Assembly (NCBI GenBank): GCA_027485645.1
Contig: JAIXQR010000001.1
Location: 427,632-491,631 of the forward strand
DNA: 64,000 nucleotides
Reading direction: 5' to 3'
DNA from: a bacterium
GTDB taxonomy: Bacteria > Armatimonadota > Fimbriimonadia > Fimbriimonadales > Fimbriimonadaceae
Of this stretch, positions 13,434-28,628 are shown one piece after another (position 1 is the stretch's first letter; the number at the start of each line of letters is the position of its first letter). Under the pieces are notes generated by a model. That model had not been told where the DNA came from, ran no database searches, and worked only from the letters and a program-made list of their open reading frames with translations. A program made the translations under genes and the position numbers.

Positions 13434-13474
13434 TACATTCAAGCCTCAGCCGTAGGAGCTTTTTCCTGTTTCCC

Positions 13475-15208
13475 ATGACCATCGACCAGAACCAGACGCC
13501 TGCGGAGGCGGACACCAACGTGACCCCCGAAGCTATTCAGGCGCCCGACATTGAAGCCGTGACCACCGATGCCGTTGTACCAACGGTAGACACCCCCGAT
13601 ACATCATCGGACGTTGCGGAGGCAGCGTTGGACTCAGCCATTTCGACCCCTGAAGCGCCCGTTACTGAAACCGTCGCCGAAGTTGTCGAGACTGCACCTG
13701 TAGTCGAAGAAGCTTCTGCGGAGCCCGTAGCCGTAGCTGCCGAACCACAGGCAGCCGAAGTTCCTTCTTCGGACCAGGCAGCAAATGATGTCGCCGCCGT
13801 AGCTGCGCTTGCGAGCGAATCGCCGGCACCAGTCGTTGAAGAGCCAGTGAACGCTGGCGTCAGCGTCGATCCGGGCGGAATGGACCTCTTTGATGCGTTC
13901 ATGAGCGGCAACTTCGCCGTTGATGGCGATGGTGCAGAAGGCGGATTCAAGCGACTCAGCAAGGGCGAGCGAATTGAAGCCACGGTCATTCAGATTGAGA
14001 ACGACCGCGTCTTCGTGAACCTCGGTACGAAGTCGGAAGGAATTCTCCCTCTCGAAGAGCTCAGCGACGAGAACCTGACCACCGCTATCGGCCAGCTCGT
14101 TGTTGGACAGAAGATCAACGTTGTCGTCCTTCGGCCAGAAGGCGCGGAAGGCAACCCGATCGTTTCGAAGAAGCGCGCAGATTTTGAAGAAGTTTGGGAT
14201 CGCGTTGAGCGAGCTCACCAGTCACAAGAAACCCTTAATGCCATGGTCGTCGACCGGGTCAAGGGCGGATTGGTGGTTGACGTCGGCGTGCGCGGATTCG
14301 TTCCGGCAACCCACGTAGGCAGCGGCAAGCTTCGCAACATCGAAAAGTACGTTGGGCAGGTTCTCTCGCTCAAGGTGCTCGAGATCGATCGAGACCGACG
14401 AAAGGTTGTTCTTTCGAACCGAGTTGCTGAGGAAGAAAACAAGGCCGCCGCTAAGGAAGCCATCTTCACCACGGCAAAGCCAGGCGACATTCTTGAAGGA
14501 ACGGTTCGACGACTTGCCGATTACGGCGCATTCGTTGATCTCGGCGGCGTGGATGGCCTCTTGCACATCTCAGAAATGAGCTGGGCTCGAATCAACCACC
14601 CGAAGGAAATGTTCAAGGAAGGCCAGGAAATCAAGGTCATGGTTCTTCGACTGGATCCGTCCGTCGGAAAGATCAGCCTTGGCCACCGACAGGTGCTTCC
14701 AGATCCTTGGAACCTCATCAAGGACAACTACCGAAAGGGCCAGAAGCTCACGGTCAACATCAGCCGAATCGTTCAGAGCGGTGCGTTTATTCGCTTGCCA
14801 GAAGGTGCAGAAGCCTTCATGCCAGTCAGCGAGATGAGCGTTCGCCGAATCCGAAAGCCACAGGACGTGGTTGAGGAAGGTCAGGTCGTCGAGGCGGAGA
14901 TCATTGATCTGCGAACCGAAGACCGACGAATGGTTCTCTCGATGCGATCGCTCGGTGGCGGCGCGGAACTCCGACCTGGCGCAGAAGTCATGGAAGATGA
15001 CGGACGCGGCATGCGCGGACGACGCAATAGCAAGACCGGCCGACGAGAAGGCGATGATGATGACGCGTCCGGCAGCCGACGCGGCGGATTCAGCAGCGGC
15101 GGTGCAACCATCGGTGAGCGACTTGGAATGCTCAAGGGTCTTCTTAACCGGGAAGAACCAGCAGAAGAGAAGCCAGACGACGCGGCCGAAGAGCCAGCAG
15201 AAGCCTAA
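13475..15208 (+). CDS. rpsA: 30S ribosomal protein S1 with long acidic N-terminal extension
   Basis: A 577-residue S1 protein, which helps mRNA bind the small ribosomal subunit. Four S1 RNA-binding domains are visible, at about residues 163-230 (GERIEATVIQIENDRVFVNLG), 250-315, 337-405 (YGAFVDLGGVDGLLHISEMSW) and 422-492. The first 160 residues are a low-complexity stretch rich in Ala, Val, Glu and Pro with no S1 fold, and the last 80 are charged (GRRNSKTGRREGDDDDASG). E. coli S1 has six domains; four is common in other phyla. The start is ATG 13475; the only purine-rich GGAG lies 16 bases upstream, too far to be a normal ribosome-binding site. Codons are strongly biased to CGA (Arg) and CCA (Pro). 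A strong terminator follows. Confidence 0.93.
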   Translation: MTIDQNQTPAEADTNVTPEAIQAPDIEAVTTDAVVPTVDTPDTSSDVAEAALDSAISTPEAPVTETVAEVVETAPVVEEASAEPVAVAAEPQAAEVPSSDQAANDVAAVAALASESPAPVVEEPVNAGVSVDPGGMDLFDAFMSGNFAVDGDGAEGGFKRLSKGERIEATVIQIENDRVFVNLGTKSEGILPLEELSDENLTTAIGQLVVGQKINVVVLRPEGAEGNPIVSKKRADFEEVWDRVERAHQSQETLNAMVVDRVKGGLVVDVGVRGFVPATHVGSGKLRNIEKYVGQVLSLKVLEIDRDRRKVVLSNRVAEEENKAAAKEAIFTTAKPGDILEGTVRRLADYGAFVDLGGVDGLLHISEMSWARINHPKEMFKEGQEIKVMVLRLDPSVGKISLGHRQVLPDPWNLIKDNYRKGQKLTVNISRIVQSGAFIRLPEGAEAFMPVSEMSVRRIRKPQDVVEEGQVVEAEIIDLRTEDRRMVLSMRSLGGGAELRPGAEVMEDDGRGMRGRRNSKTGRREGDDDDASGSRRGGFSSGGATIGERLGMLKGLLNREEPAEEKPDDAAEEPAEA

Positions 15209-15222
15209 GTCTGCGAACCCAA

Positions 15223-15256
15223 AGAGGTCCGGCATAATGTGCCGGGCCTCTTTTTT
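15223..15256 (+). terminator. Rho-independent terminator of rpsA
   Basis: A 12-base-pair stem (AGAGGTCCGGCA/TGCCGGGCCTCT, one G-T pair) with a five-base loop is followed by a run of six T ending at 15256. It lies 15 bases after the rpsA stop. The T run ends only three bases before the coaE start codon. Confidence 0.88.
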
Positions 15257-15259
15257 CGT

Positions 15260-15829
15260 ATGAACCCCGGACCTTTTCCTGATCCATCCTCATTCCGCTA
15301 TCGCATTGCGATCACAGGCGGCATTGCGGAGGGGAAGAGCACGGTTCTGCAAATGATTCGTGAGGCGGGCTATCACACCGAGAACGCCGACCTAATCGCG
15401 AGAGACGTACTGAATTCGCCCGAAGTGGCCGCCGAGGTCCTGGCGGCGCTGGGAACCACCGAGCCGGCCGCGCTCCGCACCTTGATCCGGAACTCAGACG
15501 CAGCGCGCTCGACTCTGAACGGAATCACGCACCCGCGCATTATTCAGCGGCTGGTGGAAGGTCAACCAGGGTTCTACGAAGTCCCTTTGCTGTATGAAAC
15601 TTGCATTGCGAGTGCCTTCGACCAAGTCTGGGTTGTGACCTGCGGCCAGGCCGAGCAGATGGCAAGATTGGTCGCGCGATACGGTTCAGAAGCCGAGGCG
15701 AAGGCAATGATGGACACTCAACTCCCGAGTTCGGTTAAGAGTTCCCTCGCCGATCGAGTTTTTCGAACCAATCTCGGTCTACAAACCGTCCGGGACCTTG
15801 TATCAGACTCGATCTTAAACCTGGGTTAA
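15260..15829 (+). CDS. coaE: Dephospho-CoA kinase
   Basis: A 189-residue kinase for the last step of coenzyme A synthesis, phosphorylating the 3'-hydroxyl of the ribose of dephospho-CoA. The P-loop is GGIAEGKST (residues 20-28). ITHPRIIQRL and YEVPLLYET are the substrate-site blocks conserved in CoaE (usually 'HP.I' and 'vPLLfE'). The start ATG 15260 lies three bases after the rpsA terminator T run, so there is essentially no leader; either readthrough or a promoter inside the terminator (CATAAT at 15233-15238 in the loop) must drive it. The C-terminus is short compared with E. coli CoaE. Confidence 0.9.
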   Translation: MNPGPFPDPSSFRYRIAITGGIAEGKSTVLQMIREAGYHTENADLIARDVLNSPEVAAEVLAALGTTEPAALRTLIRNSDAARSTLNGITHPRIIQRLVEGQPGFYEVPLLYETCIASAFDQVWVVTCGQAEQMARLVARYGSEAEAKAMMDTQLPSSVKSSLADRVFRTNLGLQTVRDLVSDSILNLG

Positions 15830-15836
15830 CCTTAGG

Positions 15837-15865
15837 TTGCTTGCGCGAAAGTATCGTGCTATACT
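15837..15865 (+). promoter_or_regulatory. Sigma70-type promoter for the exported-protein block
   Basis: TTGCTT (15837-15842) and TATACT (15860-15865) are separated by exactly 17 bases, close to the consensus. Transcription would begin near 15872, just before a 14-base-pair hairpin, leaving a leader of about 200 bases before the GTG start at 16075. Confidence 0.75.
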
Positions 15866-15874
15866 CGCCGTGCC

Positions 15875-16038
15875 CTTGCGGTTAGGTCTTCGGACCTGAT
15901 TGTAAGTGCCCAGCGATCGCGGGTTAAAGATCAAGGCAGAGGGTTAACACAATTGATGGAGATCAGAGGAAGGACTCAGCGCTCCGGATTGAAGGTCGCC
16001 GATCGGCGCTTGAATCCGCAAACAGGGGGCGATCGCCC
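15875..16038 (+). promoter_or_regulatory. Structured 5' leader with three hairpins (candidate cis-regulatory RNA)
   Basis: Hairpin 1 (15875-15906) has a 14-base-pair stem, counting G-T pairs, closed by a TTCG tetraloop. Hairpin 2 (15985-16018) has outer arms CGGATTGAAG/CTTGAATCCG with one mismatch and an inner CGCC/GGCG stem. Hairpin 3 (16027-16038) is the palindrome GGGCGATCGCCC. A further palindrome GCGATCGC lies at 15913-15920. I could not match the leader to a riboswitch class I know. It may only stabilise the mRNA or control translation of the downstream gene. Confidence 0.5.
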
Positions 16039-16057
16039 AAATTTCAAGAGGATGTAC

Positions 16058-16078
16058 ATGGAGGACGCGTCAAAGTGA
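16058..16078 (+). other. Possible six-codon leader ORF overlapping the next start
   Basis: ATG 16058 opens MEDASK and stops at TGA 16076-16078, overlapping the GTG start at 16075 in a GTGA junction. AAGAGG (16046-16051) is well placed as its ribosome-binding site, and the GGAGG inside it (16060-16064) is well placed for the GTG. Another ATG at 16052 would add two residues. It could couple translation, or be coincidental. Confidence 0.3.
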
Positions 16079-18105
16079 GGCGATTCATAGATTCACTGCC
16101 CGGAAGGGTTATCAGCCAACTGGTCGTCCTGGCCTTACTGTTGCCGACTTTGACTCTTGGCCTACTCGCTCGGGCGATGGCGCAGGATGGAGTCGGTGGC
16201 ATTCGAACGCCGCGAAATTTCGTAGCTGTAGTTGAGTTCAACAACCTGAAAGAGGGTGGAACGGACTACGGTGCACGAGCACAAGCGGCCTTGATTGGCG
16301 AATACGCCAAGGTCGGGGATCCAGATCTCGAACTTTTGCCGCAGGAGGTTGTCAAATTGGCAATCGACCGCCTTGGGGTGGATTCACCACCAAAGGGATT
16401 GGTCAACCTACTGCGCGTGGCCCAAGAAGCTAAGGCGACGCGAGTCGTGACTGGCGACGTCGTGGACTACATGATCCGCGAAGTTAGTGGCGGCAAACAA
16501 GCCGTCGTATCGGTTCGTGTTGTTGTTTACGATGTTGCCTCTGGCCTTACGGTCAACGGCGCAGCGGTTAAGGGCGAATCCACGATTCGACCTAGTTCGG
16601 TTGACAATCGATCTCTCGTCAACGATGCCATCAGCCAGGCTGCTAGCGTTGCGATTCGAGACATCACGGCAAGAAAGCTTCCGTTCGGAACGGTTCTCAA
16701 CACGCTCACCACGAGCGCATTGATCAACCAGGGAACCCGAACCGGATTCCGACCTGGCATGCAGGTCATCGTCAAGCGAGGACGCGAGCAGGTTGCTACG
16801 GCTCGCATCTCGGAAGTTGAGCCAGATAGCTCCACGATTCAGATTCTCAACTCGAGCAAGGGCCTCAAGCCTGGCGACCGCGTTGAAGCGATCTTTACGG
16901 TTCCTGCGGTTGCAGCAGGTTTCACCGCTGCAGGTCAGCCTCGAATCGAGCGACCTCGAAAGTCGGGTAACCCAAGCGGCCTCATTACGGCTTTGATCGT
17001 TCTCGGTCTTGCTGCTGTCCTTCTGGGCGGCGGTAACTCCAGCGGCAACAATCCGACTTCGGATGTTTACGCTCAGACCTACATGGATGCGACTCTTGCT
17101 CCAGAAGACAGCGCGATTCAGATCAACTGGCGCATCAACGGCTTCGCAAACGGCCGAGACAAGGTTCGCTGGCAGGTTTGGCGAACCGACGTTCCAGAAG
17201 CTCCTGTCACTTTTGCTCAGGGTGCAGATAGCCAAGTTATCAACCGAAGCACGGACAACGCGACCACGAGCTTTACGTGGCTGCAGAACACCGGCACCCC
17301 GGTTGGTCAGTGCTATGCAACTCCAGGCGCTAACTCGACCGCATTCCGACCAGTCACGGCCGGTACGGTCTACAACTACTCGGTTGAATTGGTTCAGGCC
17401 ATTGACACGCTCAATGACCCTAACCAGACCGGTGGCGGCGGAAATGCAGGCGGTAACGCTGGTGGAAATGCTGGCGGCAATGCCGGTGGAAACGCTGGCG
17501 GAACGACCGCTACTGCTGGTGGAACCACTGCAACTGCTGGTGGAACGACCGCGACTGCAGGTGGAACGACCGCAACTGCTGGTGGAACCACTGCAACTGC
17601 TGGTGGCACGACCGCGACCGGCGGCACCGCTGGTACCACTGGAACGACCTCGCAGACGATCTGCTGGGTTCTCTCGGACCGAGTTGCAGCTCGCGGATCG
17701 GCAACGGCACTTCGCCGACCAACCCCATCTGCTCCAACGGACGGCGCTCAGCTCAACGGCGTCAATGTCTTCTCCTTCGCAGTCACCGGAGCGACTGGAT
17801 TCAACACCCAGCTCGAAGCGGTTCTGGAGTTCTCGAACGACATTAACTTCGCTCAGCGCAATACGGTCATCGTTGCTCGAAAGAGCACGCGAGTCGGGCC
17901 AGATAGCTTCCCGTCGGTGGACGTAGGTTCCGCGACGATTCCAGCAGCAATCCGAACGGCAGCAACCGTGTTCTGGAGAGTTGGAATCCGAAACGCATCA
18001 GACAGGCCTGGCGTCAAGCCAGAGCGCAACGGATGGGGCGCGTATGTATACAGCCTCAGCCGAACGTTCAAGCCGCCAGTTGGTCCTCCAGATCCACCTC
18101 AGTAA
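16075..18105 (+). CDS. Exported CsgG/FlgT-like protein with Gly-rich tandem repeats
   Basis: A 676-residue exported protein. The start is GTG 16075, with GGAGG ten bases upstream. Residues 1-37 are a signal sequence (LVVLALLLPTLTLGLLARAMAQ region). Residues about 48-195 resemble the CsgG/FlgT fold (FVAVVEFNNLKEGG; RVVTGDVVDYM), with a FlgT-C-like beta domain at about 205-280 (GFRPGMQVIVKRGREQVATA). A hydrophobic segment near 301-320 (SGLITALIVLGLAAVLLGGG) follows. Then come a fibronectin-type-III-like region, a Gly/Asn/Thr repeat tract (about 450-520) and a final beta-rich domain with FEFSND-type strands. CsgG and FlgT proteins act at the outer membrane in secretion or flagellar assembly; function here is inference. 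Codon use is like that of rpsA, suggesting high expression. Confidence 0.8.
   Translation: MRRFIDSLPGRVISQLVVLALLLPTLTLGLLARAMAQDGVGGIRTPRNFVAVVEFNNLKEGGTDYGARAQAALIGEYAKVGDPDLELLPQEVVKLAIDRLGVDSPPKGLVNLLRVAQEAKATRVVTGDVVDYMIREVSGGKQAVVSVRVVVYDVASGLTVNGAAVKGESTIRPSSVDNRSLVNDAISQAASVAIRDITARKLPFGTVLNTLTTSALINQGTRTGFRPGMQVIVKRGREQVATARISEVEPDSSTIQILNSSKGLKPGDRVEAIFTVPAVAAGFTAAGQPRIERPRKSGNPSGLITALIVLGLAAVLLGGGNSSGNNPTSDVYAQTYMDATLAPEDSAIQINWRINGFANGRDKVRWQVWRTDVPEAPVTFAQGADSQVINRSTDNATTSFTWLQNTGTPVGQCYATPGANSTAFRPVTAGTVYNYSVELVQAIDTLNDPNQTGGGGNAGGNAGGNAGGNAGGNAGGTTATAGGTTATAGGTTATAGGTTATAGGTTATAGGTTATGGTAGTTGTTSQTICWVLSDRVAARGSATALRRPTPSAPTDGAQLNGVNVFSFAVTGATGFNTQLEAVLEFSNDINFAQRNTVIVARKSTRVGPDSFPSVDVGSATIPAAIRTAATVFWRVGIRNASDRPGVKPERNGWGAYVYSLSRTFKPPVGPPDPPQ
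17437..17640 (+). repeat. In-frame tandem repeats encoding GGNA and GGTTATA units
   Basis: About five 12-base units (Gly-Gly-Asn-Ala, 17437-17496) run into about six 21-base units (Gly-Gly-Thr-Thr-Ala-Thr-Ala, from 17497), ending in degenerate copies. Copies differ at third positions but keep the reading frame, so they form a flexible Gly/Thr-rich linker in the protein. Copy number could vary between strains. Confidence 0.9.
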
Positions 18106-18142
18106 ATCGAAGGATTTACCTCTCGGAGTGACCCTTTAACCC

Positions 18143-18173
18143 GCTTAACCCCGTCTAATACGCGGGGTTAAGC
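18143..18173 (+). terminator. Intergenic hairpin without T run
   Basis: An 11-base-pair perfect stem (GCTTAACCCCG/CGGGGTTAAGC) with a nine-base loop lies 37 bases after the CsgG/FlgT-like gene and 23 before the next start. No T run follows, so it may be a partial terminator or mRNA-processing/stability element. Confidence 0.5.
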
Positions 18174-18196
18174 CTTCAGCACCTAGGAACTGAATC

Positions 18197-21022
18197 ATGC
18201 GCGTTAGAAATAAAAGTTTTGGAATTGCCGCTCTCATCGCGTGCAGTGCCTCCGTATTTGCCCAAGGTGGAGCGTCTTTCGACCCCTCTTGCTGGCCGCC
18301 AATGAGTACGACGGGTCCTAGCACGGACTACCTCGTTTATAAGCTCACCGATGACGTACCGTTCATCGCCGGACCACAAACGAACAACTTCCTGTTCGGC
18401 GTGTCCATCGGTGTCAGTGGAACAGACACGTACGGCAACCAGTGCATAGCTCCTAACGGCGCTACGTTCAATGCCCCCGGCCGATTCGGATTCACCGTCG
18501 GCTCGGTAGGTTCGATTCAGACCACGGCAGACGATTTTCTTCGCATCAACTTTGGAATGCCCTACATGGTTGGCGGCTCCATTGGCTACACGATGCTGAT
18601 TCAGCAGAACGCCGACGGCACCAACCAACAAAAGATCCGGTTTGGTGGCAACGGTATTCGACTTGCCTTCGTTGGTGCCAGTGACCGCTACTGCATCACC
18701 GAAACCGAAGCTGGCGATTTCACAATCCGACTTCAGACGGATGTTATTGGCGACGCCGCACGCATGAGCTATCGCCTCACCAATAACGCGACGGAAATCC
18801 GCCGCGCCGGCCTTTGGATGGGCAGCGAGATTCAGCTGACCGACCAGAACGGATTCAGCGGAATCCCTGGTTACGTCTTCGCTCCAGGTTTCCGACCATT
18901 CACCGTTCCAAAGCGCTTCCGACGTGGAGCCGACGGCACAACGCTTGACGCCGAAGGCGTGCAGATTCTTCCGATGCCGAACACGATGTCGTTCGGAATT
19001 AACCAGGAACTTGCCTACGGTCTTCAGGTCGTTACCACGCCGGGAACCAGTAACGGACGGCCAACGAGCGATCAGACTCCTTCGGACGAAATCGCGATCG
19101 GTAACTCTGACTTCGGTGCTGCAGACAACGGTCTGATTGGTAACTTCACAAACAACGGCGCCACCATGCCAGACCAGCTGATCTCGCCTGACGTCATCGT
19201 CACCGACTGGGCATTCCTTCAGAAGTGGAATCCAGAGATCGTGGCGGCTGGCGGATCTCGAACTATCAACGCGTACTACAAGACCACCTGGGGAGTTGCC
19301 GACTACGCCGCACCATTCGCGGTCGTCGCCGACGCACCACCGGTCATCTCGACGACGGCAGGAGACGCGAACACCCTTACGCCAAACCCATACACGTTCC
19401 GCGTGTATGTGGACAACACTCGGGGCTACTCCACGATCGATCGAGAATTCACGCTGACGAATGTCCGCGTCGAACTGAATCTGCCACCAGGAATGTCCGA
19501 TGCCACTGATTCTTCGCGAACGAAGATCACGCGAGTCATCAACCAGATTCTTCCGCGAAACATCGGTTTCGTTGACTTCCAAGTTCAGGTAAGCGCCGAA
19601 GCGAACGGAATCCTTCCGTACACGGTTAAAGTTGACTCCGCAACTGGAGCATCGAAGACCCTGACCGGTTCGATCAACGTTGCAACCACGCCACGACTCG
19701 GCTTGCCTGCAACGGCTAACCTCGTCGGCTCCCCATGGACCTACCAGGTCACTAACTGGGAAACGATTCTTGGCCTCCAGGTCAACCAGGACTTCCAAGC
19801 CTTCACCTACGATCCAGCTCAGCGCGAATACGTGATCCAGACTGGACCACAGCGCGGACGCGGAACTTGGCTGGTCTTCGGTCAGCCACAGGGAACCGTC
19901 GTTCTCGGCGGATCGCCAACCACGCCTGCCGACACCACTACCGGCGCCGCGCCACAGACGCTTCAGTCTGGTTGGAACCTGATCGCAAACCCATACAACT
20001 TCGCTGTTCCTCTCGGACAGTTGAGCGGTATCTCGGCTGCAGATCCAGGCAACGTTCTCACCTTCCAAGAGTTGGTGAACGCCAGCTTCGTGAGCGGATC
20101 GCTTGCTTACTGGGACAACACCAGCCCAACGCCGGAGTACAAGTACGTCTCGAACGCGACGGACCTGATTCTTCCGAACAAGGGCTACTGGCTGTTCGTG
20201 AATACCCAGCAGCAGCTCACGCTCTCGTTCCCACCGGTCTTCGAACCGTTCCTACCAAGCGGTGCCGCTGTTCAAAGCAACTCGGCTAAGTCCTGGAAAC
20301 TCCAGCTTTCGGCTCGAACCGACAAGATGGTTGATGCTCAGAACTTCGTTGGAATCGCAGCGAGCGCAGCCGCCGCCGAGAAGGCAACTGCCTACGAAGC
20401 TCCGATCGCTCCGCTTGACGGCGCAATTAGCCTCTCGATCCGACAAGAAAAGGGTGGCAAGGTTGAAAAGCTTGCTCAGTCCCTCGTTGAGAAGGTTGCT
20501 AAGCAGTCCTGGAACGTCGAGGTCTACACGAAGGAAGCCGGTCCGGTAACCGTTACTTGGCCAAACCTTGCTGGCGTGCCACGGAACGTTCAGTTCCGCA
20601 TCACGGATAAGGCCACCGGCCGATCCACGAACCTTCGACGAGCTTCGGGCTACACCTTCCAGGCAGAATCCCGAACCACGCGACAGTTCACGGTCGAAAT
20701 GGAGCCAGGCGCCGCCGCCCGACCAGTCATCGGAATGGTGACTGCAGTTCGAAGCAGCAAGCTTGCCAACGCTCCGCTCAACATCACCTACACGCTCTCC
20801 TCTGAGGCAACCACGACGGTACGAATCCTGAGCGGTGGTCGAGAGATCAGCACGGTGGTTCGAGCTCGAGCCGACAAGACCGGTCAAAACTCAATCGTCT
20901 GGAACCTCCGAGATGGAGCGAACCGAGCGGTTGCTCCTGGACCTTACACGGTTGAAATCACTGCGGAATCGGCAGACGGCGAACGCGTCCGACGCTTCTT
21001 CCCAGTCAACGTCACCCGATAA
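18197..21022 (+). CDS. Large exported protein with C-terminal FlgD-like Ig domain
   Basis: A 941-residue protein beginning MRVRNKSFGIAALIACSASVFAQ, a clear signal peptide cut near residue 23. The N-terminal half (about 30-400) is a beta-rich region of unknown family. At about 590-690 there is a segment with LQSGWNLIANPYNFAVPLGQ and NKGYWLFVNT, a pattern seen in exported repeat proteins of environmental bacteria. The C-terminus (about 860-941) is FlgD-Ig-like: ITYTLSSEATTTVRILSGG then WNLRDGANRAVAPGPYTV, with the typical 'W.G.d..G..v..G.Y' block. It lies between the CsgG/FlgT-like and Ig/LptD-like genes, all in one direction. Codons favour CGA and CCA as in rpsA, so it is probably abundant. 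Function is unknown; a cell-surface role is likely. Confidence 0.75.
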   Translation: MRVRNKSFGIAALIACSASVFAQGGASFDPSCWPPMSTTGPSTDYLVYKLTDDVPFIAGPQTNNFLFGVSIGVSGTDTYGNQCIAPNGATFNAPGRFGFTVGSVGSIQTTADDFLRINFGMPYMVGGSIGYTMLIQQNADGTNQQKIRFGGNGIRLAFVGASDRYCITETEAGDFTIRLQTDVIGDAARMSYRLTNNATEIRRAGLWMGSEIQLTDQNGFSGIPGYVFAPGFRPFTVPKRFRRGADGTTLDAEGVQILPMPNTMSFGINQELAYGLQVVTTPGTSNGRPTSDQTPSDEIAIGNSDFGAADNGLIGNFTNNGATMPDQLISPDVIVTDWAFLQKWNPEIVAAGGSRTINAYYKTTWGVADYAAPFAVVADAPPVISTTAGDANTLTPNPYTFRVYVDNTRGYSTIDREFTLTNVRVELNLPPGMSDATDSSRTKITRVINQILPRNIGFVDFQVQVSAEANGILPYTVKVDSATGASKTLTGSINVATTPRLGLPATANLVGSPWTYQVTNWETILGLQVNQDFQAFTYDPAQREYVIQTGPQRGRGTWLVFGQPQGTVVLGGSPTTPADTTTGAAPQTLQSGWNLIANPYNFAVPLGQLSGISAADPGNVLTFQELVNASFVSGSLAYWDNTSPTPEYKYVSNATDLILPNKGYWLFVNTQQQLTLSFPPVFEPFLPSGAAVQSNSAKSWKLQLSARTDKMVDAQNFVGIAASAAAAEKATAYEAPIAPLDGAISLSIRQEKGGKVEKLAQSLVEKVAKQSWNVEVYTKEAGPVTVTWPNLAGVPRNVQFRITDKATGRSTNLRRASGYTFQAESRTTRQFTVEMEPGAAARPVIGMVTAVRSSKLANAPLNITYTLSSEATTTVRILSGGREISTVVRARADKTGQNSIVWNLRDGANRAVAPGPYTVEITAESADGERVRRFFPVNVTR

Positions 21023-21031
21023 GAAAACTGT

Positions 21032-21061
21032 GGCCGCGCGACGTACTTCCGTCGCGCGGCC
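21032..21061 (+). terminator. GC-rich intergenic hairpin
   Basis: A perfect 12-base-pair stem (GGCCGCGCGACG/CGTCGCGCGGCC) with a six-base loop, ten bases after the 941-residue gene. The T content after it is weak (CTTCGTC), so termination is probably partial and the next gene may be read through. Confidence 0.6.
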
Positions 21062-21083
21062 TTCGTCTATCTCATAGGCCCCT

Positions 21084-23126
21084 ATGCTTCAGCGGCACCA
21101 ACCTAGAATTCTTGCCACGGCGCTTCTTTTGGCGTCTTTAGCAAGCGTTGCGTCTGCTCAGCAGGGAATCCAGCTCTCAAGCTTTCCTCTTCGCAGTGCG
21201 GCCGACGGCCGAAGCACCGTTACGATCACGGCCATCGTTCGCAGCGCGAACGGCTCCGTCGTTCCCGATGGGACTCTGGTCAACTTCACGGCGAGCCAAG
21301 GACGATTCCGCCAAGACAGCGTTCCAACCCAGCGCGGCGTCGTTAACGTCGTTTACATCGCGGGCAATCTCCCGGGACTCGTTACGATCTCCGCATCTGC
21401 CCTCGCAGGCAATGTGCCCCCCGCCACCCTTCAAGTTGAGCTCGTCGCAGACCGAAGCCAACTGTCATCCGCACAGGAATATATCGAGGTTTACAGTGAT
21501 GGTTTTCTTGAGTACACCGCCGACAGTCGCTTTGTCTCCGCGACGACCCCAGACCGAGGCGTCAGCGTTCGCTACCGCGACATCCTGATCAAAGCGGACG
21601 ACGTCCAAATCGATTCGGGCAACTACATCGTTCGGGCAAAGAATGCTCGCTTGCGCCACGGCAAGATTGATCAAGATTTCGAAGAGCTATATATCCAGCT
21701 GAACCAGCGCACGGGCCATGGCATCACGGCCATGCCGAGCAGCAGTTGGGAAACGATCATGTGGAACGGCCACGGCTTGTCCTTTATGGAAAGCGATGGC
21801 GAAGACGGATGGAAGCTGGCGGAGATTCGACAACGGGTCGTTCCGGTCGAGATTCAGTTCGGCAAGCTGAAAGCCGCAAACCTCAAGACGTTTGATCCTA
21901 ATCGCGCCAAGTTCCAAGAGCTCGATGTTTCGCCCAGCACGATTCGGGCGAAGAAAGCCGTTGTCTTTCCAAACCGTGGTGTGCAATTCCAAAAGGCGGA
22001 GGTCTACGTTGGCGACACCAAAGTGCTGTCAATGCCGATGTATGAGCTGACGCAGTCAGCCCTATCTCAGTCGCCTCTGGTGACCGATCAGTTTGTGAGC
22101 ATGTGGAACAACTCGCTCACCGTTAACTATCCGTACTTCACTTCGGTGAAGCCGGGCCAGACGAGCCTGTTCCGATTCCGCACGGGCGAACTCTACGGTC
22201 GTAGCTCGGTCGCTAGCCGCGGAATGTTCTTGGATTACGAGCTCAACTGGAACAAAGGTGATGAGCTCGATGGCTCCGTTGGGGTTCAGGGCCTTGGTCG
22301 AAACGACTGGGTGGCCTCCGTTCGGCAGTCTTGGCAAATCGGTGATCGCGCAAACGCCTTCTTCCAAGCGCAAAGCCCCGGTCTCAACAGCGCCTTCGGC
22401 TCGTTTGGCGTGTCGAACCAGTTCAACGGGTTCCAAACTCAGTTTAACGGTAGCTTAAACCGGACCTTCCGAGGTCTCAAATACACTTCGCAGGACTACG
22501 GCCTTTCCCTTGAGAAAGATCCGATCAAGATCGGCAAGCTTCCCGCGCAACTGAACCTGGGTCTAAACGGAAGCTCCGTTTCAAACAGCCTGCTGGAAAC
22601 CACTGATCAAAGTACGGGCGTCTATGCCCGCTTGCAGTCGAACGTTCTGCCGGTTCCCGGAGTTGGAACGCTCCGTCTGGCCGGGCAAGTGCGACAGGCG
22701 AACAGCAGTCGCACCGGTGGCCGAACGAGCTACCTCGGCACCGCAACCTTCTTCACTCCGGTAGCCCGTTGGGCAAGTCTCACCACCACGTACGATTACG
22801 TTCAAGACGGCGTCGAGGACCGGGTCCTTGGAAATCACCGCGTTTCCGTTCAGGGCTTTGCTCGCTTGGGCCGAACCGAGCTAGACTTCAACGGGTTACG
22901 AGCCCTCGAAGCCGATCGGTACACGCTCTATGGAAACCTGTCGTACTTCGTAAGCAAAACCTGGCGACTCGGCTACCAATACACCTTCGACAGATTTAAT
23001 GAATCTCAGTACCTGGACTATTTCGTCACGCTCGGCTACAGCATTGGCTGGCGAGAAGTGGGGCTTATCTGGTCTCGACAAACGAACCGGATTGGCTTCC
23101 AAATTCTGGGCTCTCGCATTTATTAG
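21084..23126 (+). CDS. Outer-membrane barrel protein: Ig-like domain plus LptA/LptD-like domains
   Basis: A 680-residue protein with a signal peptide (ILATALLLASLASVASA, cut near residue 25). Residues about 28-120 form a Big_1/invasin-like Ig domain (RSTVTITAIVRSANGSVVPDGTLVNFTASQG has the typical spacing of 'v.v.D..G.pv.g..V.F....G'). Residues about 150-300 resemble the OstA/LptA jelly roll (DILIKADDVQIDSGNYIVRA). The rest, to the C-terminus, is a series of alternating amphipathic strands with aromatic ends (YGLSLEKDPIKIG; LGYQYTFDRFNESQY), as in the LptD barrel. It may be an LptD-related outer-membrane protein, but the Ig domain is not part of canonical LptD. Start ATG 21084 fits the signal peptide. 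Confidence 0.72.
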   Translation: MLQRHQPRILATALLLASLASVASAQQGIQLSSFPLRSAADGRSTVTITAIVRSANGSVVPDGTLVNFTASQGRFRQDSVPTQRGVVNVVYIAGNLPGLVTISASALAGNVPPATLQVELVADRSQLSSAQEYIEVYSDGFLEYTADSRFVSATTPDRGVSVRYRDILIKADDVQIDSGNYIVRAKNARLRHGKIDQDFEELYIQLNQRTGHGITAMPSSSWETIMWNGHGLSFMESDGEDGWKLAEIRQRVVPVEIQFGKLKAANLKTFDPNRAKFQELDVSPSTIRAKKAVVFPNRGVQFQKAEVYVGDTKVLSMPMYELTQSALSQSPLVTDQFVSMWNNSLTVNYPYFTSVKPGQTSLFRFRTGELYGRSSVASRGMFLDYELNWNKGDELDGSVGVQGLGRNDWVASVRQSWQIGDRANAFFQAQSPGLNSAFGSFGVSNQFNGFQTQFNGSLNRTFRGLKYTSQDYGLSLEKDPIKIGKLPAQLNLGLNGSSVSNSLLETTDQSTGVYARLQSNVLPVPGVGTLRLAGQVRQANSSRTGGRTSYLGTATFFTPVARWASLTTTYDYVQDGVEDRVLGNHRVSVQGFARLGRTELDFNGLRALEADRYTLYGNLSYFVSKTWRLGYQYTFDRFNESQYLDYFVTLGYSIGWREVGLIWSRQTNRIGFQILGSRIY

Positions 23127-24924
23127 TCTGCTCCTCATCGGCTCGGCCAGTGCTCAGCCGTTCGGACGGTTCGGCTATGGAAAGACACCCTTTCACGATC
23201 TCGTCAAATTCCGAAACGATGGGATTGAATCCGAAGGATCGGAGTTCCTTGGGTTCGCAACACCGCTCGAAAACCGCAAGGTCTTTAAGAGCTCAAACAT
23301 GGAGCAAACGGTTGGGTTTAAGGTCGCGGCGGATTGCCCTTCGAAGTTCAAAGTTTCCCTGACGGCCCCCGGCTTTTCGATGTTTGCCGATGGAAAGCTC
23401 ACCCTGGGCTCAACCGCCATCGGCGCTCCGTACCTAACTTGGTCCGAAGGTTCGGTACGCCAAGATGTCCCAACCCCGGCGGTCTCATGGGTCGTCTTGT
23501 CCTTTTCACCCAAGCAACCGGCCTACATCTTTGGCTTTCCAGACGCTCCCGGAGCCATGACCATTAAAGGGAAGCCCGGAAACTGGAGCATTGAGCTCGC
23601 GCCCAGAAAAGGTTGGATTCGGGTTGGGCGAGTACCCGCGGTGGTCGGAACCAACTCAGCCGCCTCTTTGGGGCAGCTGAAGCTCGCTGCGCAAAAGCTC
23701 TCATGGCTCTTTGTGCAACCGGCTCCGACGCTGCTCCAGACGAAGGTCACTGCGAATAACAACTCCATTCAATCGAGTTGGGTATTCGATCGTCCTGGTG
23801 CAATCCTGCCGGCCCCGCTGTTCCTTGCCCGCCTAGACGGATTGAACGTGCGGGTGCTGAGCAAATCGGAGCGGATTAGTGCAATCGGACCGCTTGGACC
23901 TGTTGAGGTGCTGATTGGAAAGGAGCTCATCGTCCAGTTTCCGCTCAAGCGCATCCCGACGGGACGACCGGTGGCCATTGGCTCGCCGACAACGTCTCCA
24001 CCCGGAACCGTGTCTCCTCTCGACCTTCCGAGCATTGCCGAACTGGCCTTCGAAGCCATCCCGGCATCACGCGATCCGGAAGTCGTTAAGACGGCTGAAT
24101 CGGCCTACGCCGAGTTCCTCAGCCAAGTCAACTTCGCCGCTGAACCGAGCACGCAGACCCAGCTCCCGTTTCTGGAATCTGGCCAAGGAGCCGATCTGGC
24201 ATCCGCGCATGCGCTCCTCACGCAGATCCTCGTTTCCGCCAAGCGGGCCTCCTCCGAAGAGAATTCTCTGTTCACGGGCCTTATCTGGGGGCAAGATTGG
24301 CTGACCTGGAAGTTCTCGTCTCCCGATGAGGCGATCAATCGGCGCGTTGGCGCCTTTGCCGCGATCACGGGCGCGTTCTGTCCCGAGCCGGAGCGGCGGC
24401 TCAGCGCAGCCATGTTCGAGACTGGGCTCGCGGCCGATCGAGGCTTCCTTAGATGGAAGAACCGACAGCAGGCAAACCCCGCGGTTCGCACCATCATCCC
24501 AGACCTGGTAGAGCCCATGTGGAACGTCCGTAAAACGATCTATGGCTACACCAAAACACCGGGGCCGATCGAGCCAGCAGATCCGTTCGTGATGCTGCTT
24601 AGGTCGCCGATCCGAGCCTATGCTGATCCCGCGTTTGTGATGGTGAAGGATGAGTCAGGTCTAGTCTGCACTTGGTCCGCGCTTCAATTGCGGAATCAGG
24701 GCCTTGCCTTTGCATCTAGCGCACCTATCAACTTTCGGGCGGTTCAGAACCTGTCTGAACTCACCACAACCAGTGCCCTTGGCATCGCAGAAGTCCGCTT
24801 CACGCCGGACACGACGGGAGCCTGTACGGCAAAACTCGATTGGCCTACTTGGGCACCGGAGATCCCGGCATGGGCTCCGCCGCCTCGCTACTCTGAAACT
24901 CCGCGGCCATTAGATCTTCGTTAA
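23092..24924 (+). CDS. Exported protein of unknown function
   Basis: A product of about 610 residues. The best start is TTG 23092, giving LASKFWALAFISLLLIGSASAQ, a good signal peptide; it overlaps the end of the preceding barrel gene by 35 bases, so the two are probably coupled. The mature region has beta-rich stretches (LTLGSTAIGAPYLTW; KGKPGNWSIELAPRKGWIRVG), and a helical region past residue 330 with a Trp-rich segment (LTWKFSSPDEAINRRVGAFAA). It could be an exported enzyme with a helical toroid, but I recognise no family. Its 3' end overlaps the convergent nadB gene by 80 bases. Confidence 0.7.
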   Translation: MASKFWALAFISLLLIGSASAQPFGRFGYGKTPFHDLVKFRNDGIESEGSEFLGFATPLENRKVFKSSNMEQTVGFKVAADCPSKFKVSLTAPGFSMFADGKLTLGSTAIGAPYLTWSEGSVRQDVPTPAVSWVVLSFSPKQPAYIFGFPDAPGAMTIKGKPGNWSIELAPRKGWIRVGRVPAVVGTNSAASLGQLKLAAQKLSWLFVQPAPTLLQTKVTANNNSIQSSWVFDRPGAILPAPLFLARLDGLNVRVLSKSERISAIGPLGPVEVLIGKELIVQFPLKRIPTGRPVAIGSPTTSPPGTVSPLDLPSIAELAFEAIPASRDPEVVKTAESAYAEFLSQVNFAAEPSTQTQLPFLESGQGADLASAHALLTQILVSAKRASSEENSLFTGLIWGQDWLTWKFSSPDEAINRRVGAFAAITGAFCPEPERRLSAAMFETGLAADRGFLRWKNRQQANPAVRTIIPDLVEPMWNVRKTIYGYTKTPGPIEPADPFVMLLRSPIRAYADPAFVMVKDESGLVCTWSALQLRNQGLAFASSAPINFRAVQNLSELTTTSALGIAEVRFTPDTTGACTAKLDWPTWAPEIPAWAPPPRYSETPRPLDLR

Positions 24925-26392
24925 AGTGAAGACCGACATTTCGATCTCGAAGAAGAGCGCCGCGCACTACGTGCTGCGCCGCGAGCATTACGTTGCGGCT
25001 TTCCACCGGATACCGCGCAAACGGCGCGGTGGGCAAGCGGTGGTACTGGTGCAGCGTCTCGGCGATCATTTTCTCAGCCGCTCGAAGACCCTCAAAATTG
25101 CGCACGATACCGACGTGCTGGGTCATCATTTTTTGCAGGGCACGCCGCAGCCGAATCGCTTCGGTTTCGTGAATGCAAGGCGGTGCTTCTCCCTCGCCAA
25201 GCTTTCGATGCGGCTCATTCTGAACCGCCCGCGCGGCCGCATCGGAAAACACCATCGCTTCCAGCAGCGAATTGCTCGCAAGTCGGTTTGCGCCGTGTAC
25301 GCCGGTGCAGGCGACTTCGCCGCTAGCGTATAGGCCCGGCAGGCTCGTGCGTCCGTCAAGGTCGGTCACCACGCCGCCGCAGGAGTAGTGCTGAGCCGGA
25401 ACCACCGGGATCCACTCCTTATCCATTTCGATTCCGATGCTGAGCAGGCGCTCGTAGATCGTTGGAAATTCATGATGGATCCGTTTAGGGTCCAAGTGGG
25501 TGAGATCCAGATAGACGCACCACGTTTCGTGCTTCTTGATTTCGGAGTCAATCGCGCGGGCGACAATATCGCGCGGGGCGAGCTCTAGGCGCTCGTCGTA
25601 GTCGTACATGAAGCGGCGCCCAAGGTGGTTGCGCAAGGTGGCCCCCGCTCCCCGGACTGCCTCGGTGATCAAGAAGCTCCGCATCTGGGGATGGTAGAGC
25701 GTCGTGGGATGGAACTGCATGAATTCCATTTGCGCGATCTCCGCTCCGGCCTCGGTGGCCAAAGCTATTCCGTCCGCGGTCGCGACGGCGGGGTTCGTCG
25801 TGTGCTGGTAGATCTTGCCGCTCCCGCCGGTAGCAAGCATCACGGCTCGGCTCGAGAAAGCCGCCTCGCCCACGTCCTCGATGTTGGCAACAACGCCGGT
25901 GCACTCGCCGTCCCGCATTAGCAGGTGGGTGACGAATGCCCGTTCGATCACGGTGATATTCGGGTTTGTACGAACCGAGGCGACAACGGCGCGCTCAACT
26001 TCTGCGCCGGTTCGGTCGGCGGTGTGAACAATGCGGTTTCGGCTATGTCCGCCTTCAAGCCCAAGATCCAGCACGCGTCCGTTGGAATCAAAGTCCGCCC
26101 CGAGATTGACCAGCCATTCGATCGCGCGAGGCGCGTTCTGGACCAGGAAGCGAACGGCGTCTGGATCGCACAGGCCCGCTCCGGCAATCAGCGTGTCCTG
26201 CTCGTGCAGTTCCCAGGAATCGGCTTCGCCGACCGCCGCCGCAATGCCACCTTGCGCCCACTTGGTGTTGCTGTCGGTGATGTCGCTTTTGGTGAGGACA
26301 CAAACTCGGCCATGCTCGGCAACTTTGATGGCAAAGCTGAGGCCAGCAATTCCGCTGCCGATAACGATGTAGTCGTACTGGTAAGTGTCCAT
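24845..26392 (-). CDS. nadB: L-aspartate oxidase
   Basis: A 515-residue flavoprotein for the first step of de novo NAD synthesis, oxidising L-aspartate to iminoaspartate. The FAD-binding motif GSGIAG is at residues 12-17 of MDTYQYDYIVIGSGIAG. Other family blocks are KWAQGGIAAAVG, EGGHSRNRIVH, MEFMQFHPTTLY, YSCGGVVTDLDGRTSLPGLYA and GVHGANRLASNSLLEAMVF. The start is ATG 26392, with AAGG nine bases upstream. It begins 10 bases after the stop of the DUF5060 glycosidase gene, so the two form an operon although their functions are unrelated. Its last 80 bases overlap the convergent exported-protein gene. No nadA or nadC is nearby. Confidence 0.96.
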   Translation of the reverse strand: MDTYQYDYIVIGSGIAGLSFAIKVAEHGRVCVLTKSDITDSNTKWAQGGIAAAVGEADSWELHEQDTLIAGAGLCDPDAVRFLVQNAPRAIEWLVNLGADFDSNGRVLDLGLEGGHSRNRIVHTADRTGAEVERAVVASVRTNPNITVIERAFVTHLLMRDGECTGVVANIEDVGEAAFSSRAVMLATGGSGKIYQHTTNPAVATADGIALATEAGAEIAQMEFMQFHPTTLYHPQMRSFLITEAVRGAGATLRNHLGRRFMYDYDERLELAPRDIVARAIDSEIKKHETWCVYLDLTHLDPKRIHHEFPTIYERLLSIGIEMDKEWIPVVPAQHYSCGGVVTDLDGRTSLPGLYASGEVACTGVHGANRLASNSLLEAMVFSDAAARAVQNEPHRKLGEGEAPPCIHETEAIRLRRALQKMMTQHVGIVRNFEGLRAAEKMIAETLHQYHRLPTAPFARYPVESRNVMLAAQHVVRGALLRDRNVGLHFNEDLMAAEFQSSEAAEPMPGSPVPK

Positions 26393-26402
26393 GGCCGCGA
26401 CC

Positions 26403-28628
26403 TTATTTGCGATTAACCCGGATCGCGAGGTCCTTCTCGAAGCTAGGTACGGGAATGCGAACGGCTCCGTTCGCACTCACGGAGACATTTGCTCGCTTAA
26501 AGATGTCTCCGGTCCAAGTATTCCAGTACTGAACTTCCCAGCGTCCCGGCGCCAGGCCCTTCAAGCCGAGCATCGCCGGAATGGTTTTCGGGAAAGTTCG
26601 TTTCTCTTCAATAACCGCCCGCCAGCTTCGTCCCGTGGGTCGCATCCAGATCAGCGAATAGTCCCGGCCATTCAGGGCCCAAACATCAAGCGCCGGCTTG
26701 GTGAGCTTCACCGCGTCTTTGAATCGGTAAGAAACCTGGACCCAGTCGTTACCGTTGTTGCGAACGGCGACGCTGTGGTTGCCCGGTGAAAGGTCAACGC
26801 CGTACTTGCCGTTGTACTTTTTCACGATCGCCCCGTCCGCTGCGTTTTCTGGGGCGTTGAAAGGCTTGGCTGCCACGCGCTCGTTGTCCACCCAAATCTC
26901 TATCCGCGCGCCACCGTAGCCAGAAACGCCGCGGACATCGACTTCGAATCGCGTTTTGCGCTCAAAGTTCACCGAGAAAGCGACTGGGTTGTGCCAAGTC
27001 GGGTGATTCCGCTGACCATGCAAGAGACCGGAAACCGGCACGTTGCCCGTCACCGCACCGGTTCGCGAAATCTTCACGCGCTGCGGCTGGTTTTGCGGGG
27101 CCGGCTCCCATGCCTCCGGTCCGCCGGAGATTTCGACATCTTGGTAGCTCGCAACCTTGGGAGGAGTTTGGAACGCGATCGTCGGTCGGTTAACGCGGAA
27201 TTCTTCCCTGGAAAAATTGATGCCTTTCGTGAATTCGCTGACCGGCTTGAACAGCTTGAACAAATCCTTCGGAGCAGTCAGGCTGTCCCACCACCACGGC
27301 ATTGCGGCGCCCGCTCCGCCGGAGACGATCGACGCCCACATCGGGTCATGAACTTGCAGACCCGTCGGGTCTTCCTCGGCTCGCGGTCCCGTCCAGTCTG
27401 CGCCGATCTCGCCGACATAGTGCGGCTTGTCGAGGCTGGCTTTTCGGACCTGCTGATTGATAATCGTGCCCACGATGTCGGGCGAGGAGTAATGGTGCGT
27501 CTGCACGTAATCCAACTCAGGCATCGCGTCGATGTCGCGGACCCCGGCGGCAGCGGAGAAGCTCGTGGTCTGAAGATGCTTGTAAGGATCGAGCGCGCGC
27601 AGAACGGTCGACATCCGTTGGTGCCACTTTTTCACGATCACGGGATCAAAGTCGGTCGTGATGTCGCATTCGTTCCAGAACTCCCACGCGAACATGTTCG
27701 TGTAAGCCCCGTACCGAGCCACGAGGTAGCGAAGCTTGTTTTGGTAGAGCCGGTCCATCTTGGCGTCGGTCCAAAAATCGCTCCAGATTCGCAACGGCCC
27801 GCCATGGTCGCGGTTGTGGGGTGTTTGCTCCCAGTAGTTGAATGAGTCGCGCTGGCGGAGAATGTTGAAGCTATCGATGCACAGCTTGATGTCGATGCCC
27901 TGCTTCGCCGCGGACTGGAGGACGTAGTCAATCTTCCAAGCGCGGCCAAGATCGAACTGCCCCATTCCGAGCCCTTCTTCAGGCTTGCCTTTTCGTTCGA
28001 TTCCGAACGTGAAGATCTCGGGAGACAGCCAGAGGCGACCGAAGTTAGCCCCGTTCGCGGAAAGCTTCGGAAGCCAGTCGTCGTAATCGTAGGTTCCACG
28101 CGGGCTCGCCCAGCAGAGGTTGGTGCCTACCGGAAACACGGATCGACCATCGCTACGGACGAAGTAGCGCGGATCCTTTCCGCCGACCGCAACGAAGCCG
28201 GGTCCGTTTCCTTTGCTCACGGTGACCGTTTGAGCCGGCGTGATGAACGTATCCGTTTGGTCCTTGAATCGAACTCGAACTTGGTACGTGCCCGGCTCGG
28301 TCGGGGTCCAGCGGATTTTCCACCCCGGCGATCCAGATCGGGTCAGTTCTTCCGTGGTCCCGTTGAGCCTTCTTTCGAACGGTGCGGTCCAAAAACCAGG
28401 CACTGAGAACTTCCGCTCCGAATTTTCAACCAGCAAGTCCAGCGCGGCATCGGCGGGATCGAACGGGTTGTTAAAGGTCCCCTTTGCGTCCACCTCCATC
28501 TCAAACATCTCAAAGGTTTTGAGCGATGGAATGGCGGGGGCCGAGACTTGGATTTTGTACACCTGCGTGTACGGCGTTACCAACTTTGTTTGGGCGGTGG
28601 AGTAGGCCAGCGCCAGGCAGGTGATCAT
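26403..28628 (-). CDS. Exported DUF5060 glycoside hydrolase (GH5-like barrel)
   Basis: A 741-residue protein with a short hydrophobic N-terminus (MITCLALAYSTAQ), a DUF5060 domain at about residues 30-125 (FEMFEMEVDAKGTFNNPFDP; GWKIRWTPTEPGTYQVRVRF), and a TIM-barrel glycosidase at about 140-480. Likely catalytic acids are E in FAWEFWNECD (about 319) and E in HYVGEIGADW (about 407), the pattern of clan GH-A. The C-terminal 230 residues are beta-rich, with a carbohydrate-binding-like domain (IEIWVDNERVAAKPFNAP) and a final Ig-like part. DUF5060 is common at the N-terminus of such glycosidases. Substrate cannot be told. nadB follows at 10 bases. Confidence 0.85.
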   Translation of the reverse strand: MITCLALAYSTAQTKLVTPYTQVYKIQVSAPAIPSLKTFEMFEMEVDAKGTFNNPFDPADAALDLLVENSERKFSVPGFWTAPFERRLNGTTEELTRSGSPGWKIRWTPTEPGTYQVRVRFKDQTDTFITPAQTVTVSKGNGPGFVAVGGKDPRYFVRSDGRSVFPVGTNLCWASPRGTYDYDDWLPKLSANGANFGRLWLSPEIFTFGIERKGKPEEGLGMGQFDLGRAWKIDYVLQSAAKQGIDIKLCIDSFNILRQRDSFNYWEQTPHNRDHGGPLRIWSDFWTDAKMDRLYQNKLRYLVARYGAYTNMFAWEFWNECDITTDFDPVIVKKWHQRMSTVLRALDPYKHLQTTSFSAAAGVRDIDAMPELDYVQTHHYSSPDIVGTIINQQVRKASLDKPHYVGEIGADWTGPRAEEDPTGLQVHDPMWASIVSGGAGAAMPWWWDSLTAPKDLFKLFKPVSEFTKGINFSREEFRVNRPTIAFQTPPKVASYQDVEISGGPEAWEPAPQNQPQRVKISRTGAVTGNVPVSGLLHGQRNHPTWHNPVAFSVNFERKTRFEVDVRGVSGYGGARIEIWVDNERVAAKPFNAPENAADGAIVKKYNGKYGVDLSPGNHSVAVRNNGNDWVQVSYRFKDAVKLTKPALDVWALNGRDYSLIWMRPTGRSWRAVIEEKRTFPKTIPAMLGLKGLAPGRWEVQYWNTWTGDIFKRANVSVSANGAVRIPVPSFEKDLAIRVNRK

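Follow-up and report, generated by a model that had tools for sequence, protein, structure and literature searches.

The outer-membrane protein LptD combines a jellyroll with a C-terminal barrel, of 26 strands in E. coli, and lipid is its known substrate. To our knowledge, this barrel family is known only for lipid transport, and LptD-like barrels for passing lipid and not protein. In the type IX secretion system, unlike exported proteins, including proteases, carry an Ig-like C-terminal domain (type A CTD) that reaches the last residue. CsgG, PelC, LpoB and FlgT are periplasmic-outer-membrane proteins, and GH81 enzymes are endo-beta-1,3-glucanases. Here we describe a four-gene block with partial likeness to each of these, found in a stretch of 64,000 nucleotides (the window) from a member of the Fimbriimonadaceae, phylum Armatimonadota.

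The four-gene block and its flanking proteins

The four large same-strand open reading frames of the preliminary description are real (Table 1), and the signal peptides claimed for them agree with N-termini that, judged by eye, are all hydrophobic and signal-peptide-like. The 35-base overlap that it gives for genes 3 and 4 holds with the likelier start TTG 23092, which gives a protein 4 of 610 aa; with ATG 22999 the protein has 641 aa and the overlap is 128 bases. Its hairpins are also real: strong ones occupy the gaps of 91 bases (z -3.1) and 61 bases (z -5.6), and as described none is terminator-like on the + strand. The good promoter placed at the front was not recovered, the sole sigma-70-like site in 15800-25000 being on the minus strand, with 2.4 expected.

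Table 1. Features of the block and its neighbours, in window coordinates.
Feature	Coordinates	Strand	Basis
S1-domain gene, rpsA-like, conserved upstream neighbour of gene 1	13409-15208		Pfam, locus comparison
coaE, conserved upstream neighbour of gene 1	15239..15829	+	Pfam, locus comparison
Gene 1, protein 1 (676 aa)	16075..18105	+	ORF list
Tandem repeats, Gly/Ala/Thr-rich linker of protein 1	17436..17618	+	Repeat scan
Gene 2, protein 2 (941 aa), exported, C-terminally tagged	18197..21022	+	ORF list, Pfam, loci, tag profile
GYW domain (GWNLIANPYN...GYW) of protein 2, directly upstream of tag	19946..20269	+	
C-terminal domain (tag) of protein 2, 246 aa: beta domain + FlgD-Ig, Arg at stop	20282..21019	+	
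12-bp hairpin between genes 2 and 3	21032..21061	.	Hairpin scan
Gene 3, protein 3 (680 aa), predicted LptD-superfamily outer-membrane barrel	21084..23126	+	AF2, Foldseek, hhalign
Big_1/Invasin-D3-like Ig domain of protein 3	21186..21449	+	Pfam, PDB profile match
Beta-jellyroll-like part of protein 3, residues 134-323	21483..22052	+	Model strands; matched LptD region
Beta-barrel of protein 3, residues 344-677	22113..23114	+	AF2 model
Gene 4, protein 4, exported, GH81 beta-1,3-glucanase fold	22999..24924	+	Structure comparison
Putative nadB-like gene, convergent downstream neighbour	24845..26476	-	Pfam FAD_binding_2

Protein 1 is exported and carries a CsgG/PelC/LpoB/TolB-N-like domain at about residues 45-200, followed by a small beta/SH3-like domain (about 205-275) and a hydrophobic segment (near 305-320), both placed by eye, and then by Gly/Thr-rich repeats and a C-terminal segment. 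For its earlier label, CsgG/FlgT-like, the matches are weak: Pfam CsgG gave no match in protein 1 itself and matched 5 of 35 homologues (best 1.6e-4). The best PDB match of its profile is PelC (E 0.005), and weak LptE matches occur in 2/35 homologues (best 0.007). In families other than the window's, a small CsgG-like protein, here called protein X, is encoded between the barrel and an upstream ORF with the C-terminal tag described below. Pfam CsgG matches it weakly in 4/13 cases (best 0.0016) and LptE, also weakly, in 3/13 (best 0.014), and the N-terminal domain of protein 1 is homologous to it (hhalign 97.8%, E 1.3e-12). Both proteins resemble the CsgG/PelC/LpoB/FlgT group through weak profile matches, from which protein 1 is set apart by its long C-terminal extension. 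The labels CsgG, FlgT and FlgD thus express likeness of domains; the block shows no partner genes of curli, Pel or flagella, and the loci read show none of curli or flagella.

Protein 4 had been listed as an unknown exported protein; its N-terminus is in keeping with export, but its fold can be identified. The ten best Foldseek matches are GH81 (E 7e-11 to 4e-8; next match 3e-3), and structure alignment to GH81 gives Z 10.4-12.5 over 426-449 residues. The likeness is one of fold, and GH81 is absent among the sequence-profile PDB matches up to E 10, which are mostly kinesins. Since D433 is the sole invariant acidic residue in 39 homologues, with no other Asp or Glu nearly invariant, GH81 catalysis by protein 4 is doubtful. 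Among the loci compared, gene 4 turned up only within the taxonomic order of the window.

Protein 3 and the second LptD family

The AF2 model of protein 3 (pLDDT 84, pTM 0.73) places a Big_1 Ig domain first, then a jellyroll, then a barrel in which about 21-22 strands can be counted, in agreement with the Ig plus OstA/LptD-like barrel of the preliminary description. Pfam finds Big_1 at E 1e-6, below its own cut-off; the domain recurs at E<=0.1 in 54/54 homologues, and invasin is matched in the PDB (E 1.7e-11). Foldseek PDB ranks 1-14 are LptD (E 3e-14 to 8e-10), 13 of them by title and one, 4q35, titled only 'membrane protein', which we take to be LptD. Homology to the genome's other LptD family is found by hhalign (96.7%, E 3.5e-10). 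A VIA structure search places LptD (Z 11.9-12.9) at ranks 22, 41 and 46, in a ranking led by TonB-dependent receptors, TOM and isolated Ig domains, with other barrels at similar or higher Z. Two other barrel types were considered and set aside: an usher, the next Foldseek match after LptD, is weaker at 5.8e-7, and an inverse autotransporter of intimin-like Ig and barrel has the reverse of the domain order in the model, where the Ig domain is N-terminal. The predicted structure assigns protein 3 to the LptD superfamily of outer-membrane barrels. It differs from LptD in the extra N-terminal Big_1 domain and in its smaller modelled strand number; lptF/G do not adjoin it in the window, and another LptD co-exists with it. 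Protein 3 is a paralogue of LptD and probably not the LPS translocon.

The preliminary description noted that Lpt partner genes were missing, which is true locally but misleading, since lptF/G, an lptB-like ATPase gene and an LptD gene lie outside the block in the same genome. This second LptD family adjoins lptF/G, and its profile matches PDB LptD at 1.6e-8, versus 0.36 for protein 3; on both grounds protein 3 would be free for another job. LpxC and LptF/G are found in 61/61 genomes searched. Pfam LptD (PF04453) matched none of the same number (own + 60 relatives) and none of the 54 protein 3 homologues, and is insensitive here because the lptF/G-linked LptD misses it too. OstA_N (PF03968) matches in 21/41 genomes, none in the window's own.

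Across 291 Armatimonadota genomes, protein 3 has matches in 273, the protein 1 profile in 275 and both LptD-like families in 243. Few candidates were scored per genome (the best 4 for protein 3 and for protein 1, 3 for the other LptD and 18 for the tag), so the numbers of copies are minima and a genome without a match may in some cases have been missed. Protein 3 was at first taken for the LptD that the phylum seemed to lack, a view dropped once the better LptD was found at the lptF/G locus. A related reading makes protein 3 the true LPS translocon and gives the LptD beside lptF/G another function. It would suit a near-universal protein 3 family (273/291) and the empty Pfam LptD search, but the other family, which adjoins lptF/G, resembles solved LptD more closely and is kept in two reduced genomes (G132 and G133) that have no protein 3 match, and we regard this reading as very improbable.

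The C-terminal tag and conserved gene order

Protein 2 is, as first described, a FlgD-Ig protein (Pfam FlgD_ig, E 1.4e-6, residues 857-927), and the match is C-terminal. It forms part of a 246-residue domain, a beta domain plus FlgD-Ig, of which 80 distinct full copies were collected, many of them used to build the tag model. The tag ends exactly at the stop in 74/79 copies with the stop seen, and a terminal Arg is present in 74/79 as compared with 60/434 other long ORFs. The GYW domain lies directly upstream in 76/76 full-tag ORFs with at least 130 residues before the tag, a count that includes repeat copies of the same locus. A further 20 tagged ORFs behave similarly: in the 19 whose stop was seen, the tag runs exactly to it in 18, and the last residue is R in 17 and K in 2. 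Ten of these 20, those for which a barrel position is listed, are on a different contig from the barrel or at least 100 kb away. Tagged cargo is varied, comprising subtilases, propeller proteins (PD40 + CarboxypepD_reg), giants of 2,000-2,600 residues and small tag-only proteins. Barrels are few per genome and tagged proteins many, from 1 to at least 18.

The tag shares with type IX cargo its place at the very end of unlike exported proteins, and it gives weak matches (E<=1) to type IX families, namely Por_Secre_tail in 23/49 tags (best 2e-4), PorZ in 27 and PorU in 36. Pfam Por_Secre_tail matches 4/49 (best 0.0056) and FlgD models score better. Since FlgD-Ig is a common Ig fold and the best tag matches are to FlgD itself (PDB E 6.7e-10; NCBIfam FlgD in 49/49), the type IX likeness may be one of shared fold only. 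The tag module is also longer than its type IX equivalent, usually following a GYW domain, and the neighbouring genes differ. SprA_N was found in 0/151 genomes, in a search whose positive control was also silent.

In 43 loci the sequence extends 8 kb or more upstream of the barrel; 40 of them have one or more same-strand tagged ORFs on that side, and protein X directly precedes the barrel in 16/16 loci outside the window's family. The gene order persists in loci of eight families and is conserved more than chance. Both supports that the preliminary description had named for its envelope system are therefore in place, namely genes that stay together in other genomes, here the tagged protein and the barrel, and a third protein predicted as a barrel, which Foldseek assigns to the LptD type. 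The order is not universal. In G132 and G133, 1.5 Mb genomes of one genus, proteins 2 and 4 are absent at the locus along with protein 3, and protein 1 is shortened to 259-275 aa; gene 1 still adjoins coaE where the remaining genes of the block are gone. Loci L004 and L048 keep the barrel and protein 4, with no protein 1 or tagged protein upstream. In G021, X and the barrel follow a giant that has the GYW domain and lacks the tag. G021 is one of 23 sampled genomes in which no tag was detected; of the 20 of these that are listed, 18 still have protein 3. Presence and absence gives no barrel-tag association, because seven tagged genomes (G002, G004, G013, G032, G181, G212 and G289) have no protein 3 match, and this approach was set aside as uninformative among the sampled genomes.

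A possible surface-display module and its rivals

We propose, at somewhat short of even chances, that the block belongs to a module for surface display found across the phylum, with the LptD paralogue as its outer-membrane component. The folds, homologies, shared tag, gene order, distribution and joint loss in one lineage are computed. Tagged proteins such as protein 2 would cross the inner membrane by their signal peptide, and the C-terminal domain (beta domain + FlgD-Ig with its Arg end, usually after GYW) would serve as a sorting or anchoring tag. The CsgG/PelC-like periplasmic proteins, protein 1 and, outside the window's family, X, may organise the periplasmic side, and tagged proteins may be delivered through or onto protein 3, with its added Ig domain; protein 4 would be a lineage-specific GH81-fold accessory. 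We infer the role of the tag as a signal, its recognition by protein 3, the direction of transport and the passage of tagged proteins through the barrel. The narrower suggestion that protein 3 is the translocon of an undescribed protein secretion system, with Arg-ended FlgD-Ig cargo and CsgG/PelC-like partners, is tentative; such a system would be a type IX counterpart built on a lipid-transport barrel. Against the module, G132/G133 retain protein 1 although they have no barrel match, and the window's own genome yielded one tagged protein among the best 18 of 20 candidates, to which FlgD_ig adds one weak match. The phylum-specific envelope assembly or surface-layer system first suggested stands at the level of a proposal because the synteny and barrel checks were both favourable, revised in that the barrel is an LptD paralogue, gene 4 was met only in the window's taxonomic order and gene 1 outlasts the rest.

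The main rival keeps protein 3 as an exporter of lipid or glycan. Paired with X or protein 1 in the manner of LptDE, it would export a further lipid or glycolipid or, like PelB-PelC, a polysaccharide; the tagged proteins would sit on the glycan and protein 4 would trim or bind it. We think this unlikely, although much is in keeping with it: the fold and homology of protein 3 are those of a lipid transporter, LptE matches protein 1 and X weakly, PelC is the best PDB match of protein 1, protein 4 has the GH81 fold, and genomes with a barrel and no detected tag would be accounted for. Yet the block holds no glycosyltransferase, synthase or Lpt inner-membrane gene, the Lpt genes being elsewhere, and in the loci read it is mainly tagged proteins that are encoded upstream. 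Less probable again is an S-layer or matrix built of the tagged proteins, with the tag as no more than a structural Ig tail and the barrel and CsgG-like genes as ordinary genes of the envelope that shared expression holds together. FlgD-Ig is common, protein 1 stays near coaE without the rest of the block and the large neighbours are of unknown family, all as that reading would have it; a terminal Arg and a C-terminal position across cargo as unlike as subtilases and tag-only proteins argue against it.

Titles and abstract openings on Armatimonadota, Fimbriimonas, Chthonomonas and LptD paralogues, with subscription literature thinly covered, contained no description of such a module. The work separates two LptD-like families in Armatimonadota and names the likely true LptD, which Pfam misses, and the tag lets many unannotated surface proteins of the phylum be recognised. 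If the surface-display module is real, a barrel family of lipid transport would have taken on proteins, in a phylum whose envelope has received little study.

The module and its gene order across Armatimonadota

A conserved gene module, an LptD paralogue within it and a C-terminal tag shared by its associated proteins are established here computationally. In the window, the module consists of four same-strand ORFs (proteins 1–4) with an S1-domain gene (rpsA-like) and coaE on the 5′ side and a convergent nadB-like gene at the 3′ end, in a source genome of 3.19 Mb (7 contigs, 98% complete). Pfam assigned Big_1 to protein 3 and FlgD_ig to the C-terminal end of protein 2 and gave no convincing match for proteins 1 and 4; NCBIfam gave FlgD matches, all weak, in protein 2 only. 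Among the titles and abstract openings listed by literature searches on Armatimonadota secretion and LptD paralogues, none gives an account of the module.

Protein 3 is matched in 273 of 291 Armatimonadota genomes (187/194 of the high-quality ones), the protein 1 profile in 275 (191/194), and both together in 262. Gene order was read at 45 loci from genomes with a match to protein 3 (the barrel), with long contigs preferred and close relatives included; all but L003 and L039 include 8 kb or more of sequence 5′ of the barrel. Among these 43, the order protein 1, tagged protein, protein 3 occurs in 25 of 27 loci of the window's family or near relatives, a group to which five named records were assigned by similarity. 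In other families, at least one tagged protein lies upstream of the barrel in 15 of 16 loci, and a small CsgG-like protein, X, stands directly 5′ of it in all 16. Loci L004, L048 and L075 depart from the usual upstream order. Downstream of the barrel, protein 4 is present in 27 of the 29 loci from the window's family and in 3 of the 16 others. A MAG labelled Chthonomonas calidirosea (L002, CAMCWC010000008.1) is a near twin of the source genome here, its protein 3 being 95% identical; further matches from that search carry the label Fimbriimonadaceae, and one or other label may be in error.

Profile comparison shows homology between X and the N-terminal domain of protein 1 (97.8%, E 1.3e-12), and weak matches place both in the neighborhood of CsgG, PelC, LpoB, FlgT and LptE. 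Protein 1 still adjoins coaE in G194 and in G132 and G133, reduced genomes of one genus in which it is cut to 259–275 aa. At the locus in G132 and G133 proteins 2, 3 and 4 are missing, a protein 3 search of both whole genomes gave no match, and the lptF/G-type LptD family is retained. We read these losses, in a single lineage and with proteins 2 and 4 judged at the locus, as the loss of one functional unit.

Features of the window and of other loci in the source genome
Location	Feature
Window 16075–18105, +	Protein 1
Window 17436–17618	Gly/Thr/Ala-rich tandem repeats inside gene 1 (12-, 21-, 24- and 63-base periods), possibly variable in length
Window 18197–21022, +	Protein 2
Window 21032–21061; gap 18106–18196	Strong 12-bp intergenic hairpin in each (z −5.6 and −3.1); no terminator call on the coding strand at either
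Window 21084–23126, +	Protein 3
Window 22999/23092–24924, +	Protein 4
Window 28863–29780	Pilin-like protein (N_methyl)
Window 30484–33390	968-aa protein, seven FG-GAP repeats
L085:8027–11038 (C6)	lptF/G copy; ABC ATPase (lptB-like); exported protein, LptA/LptC-like by eye, without match in a Pfam search
L086:9611–11905 = C3:792610–794904	Likely true LptD, 765 aa, directly after lptF/G
L087:1–8995 (C3)	One cluster: TamB-like and BamA-type Omp85 genes (Pfam), LpxC; by eye, two Skp/OmpH-like proteins and one LpxD-like

Predicted folds and a second LptD family

The AlphaFold2 model of protein 3 (54-sequence alignment, mean pLDDT 84, pTM 0.73) comprises Ig, jellyroll-like and barrel parts. Its best 14 Foldseek matches in the PDB are LptD (E 3e-14 to 7.5e-10), including 4q35, which we take to be LptD, its entry title giving membrane protein only; ushers come next, from E 5.8e-7. 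The low TM-scores (about 0.3) may reflect parts that are hinged differently or that are alike only in part. The sequence profile found invasin for the Ig domain (E 1.7e-11) and LptD at E 0.36 only, and VIA gave LptD at Z 11.9–12.9, not set apart from other barrels. The protein 4 model (pLDDT 85.7) matches ten GH81 chains (E 7e-11 to 4e-8; next match 3e-3), with Z 10.4–12.5 for ten GH81 entries and 9.9 for the next, and its predicted fold suggests a GH81-like protein.

LpxC and LptF/G were found in all 61 genomes searched and Pfam LptD in none. The Pfam model also misses the protein directly after one of the two lptF/G loci read in the source genome, whose family profile finds LptD in the PDB (E 1.6e-8) and which is likely the true LptD. 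This family is matched in 255 of 291 genomes (184/194 of the high-quality ones), including 12 of the 18 without protein 3; therefore 243 match both families, although in distant genomes with weak E-values the two matches may share one place. In the source genome each query finds its own locus only. The families are homologous by profile comparison (96.7%, E 3.5e-10, 371 columns), and protein 3 is thus a paralogue. It is probably not the LPS translocon. LPS synthesis genes and BamA are reported for two Armatimonadetes genomes (PMC5629042) and LPS core genes for Armatimonadetes (PMC5007114), and LptD/E were not found in diderm Firmicutes (PMC5007114), nor lptD and lptE in atypical diderms (PMC8871954).

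The C-terminal tag and a proposed role of the barrel

Nearly all protein 2 relatives in the loci read end in a 246-residue domain, the tag, which combines a beta domain with FlgD-Ig; a small number have a broken frame or are cut off. The tag's last residue is Arg in 90% or more of the aligned rows, and a GWNLIANPY...GYW domain precedes the tag in all 76 cases with enough sequence before it. Among 80 distinct tags, many of them used to build the tag model, the stop was seen in 79; 74 of these run exactly to it, and 74 have a terminal Arg, compared with 60 of 434 other long ORFs from those loci. At a further 20 sites the stop was seen in 19, with 18 tags ending exactly there and a terminal residue of Arg in 17 and Lys in 2. 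Relative to the listed barrel, ten of these 20 sites are on a different contig or no less than 100 kb away; the other ten may be linked to it. The tag was detected at E 1e-5 or better in 128 of 151 sampled genomes, in one or two copies per genome in the window's family and in as many as 18 or more elsewhere, with no more than 18 candidates scored per genome. The cargo parts include subtilases, proteins combining PD40 with CarboxypepD_reg, giants and family-less proteins, and some tagged proteins are small exported proteins, hardly more than the tag. Type IX models match the tag weakly, and FlgD itself matches it better.

The best, though unproven, reading of the module is one in which the barrel would export the tagged proteins; its main rival is that the module is a second exporter of lipid or glycan. 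Five genomes of the window's genus (L038–L042) carry altered tags, which in L038, L039 and L042 no longer end in Arg. These altered tags constitute a natural experiment on the terminal residue.
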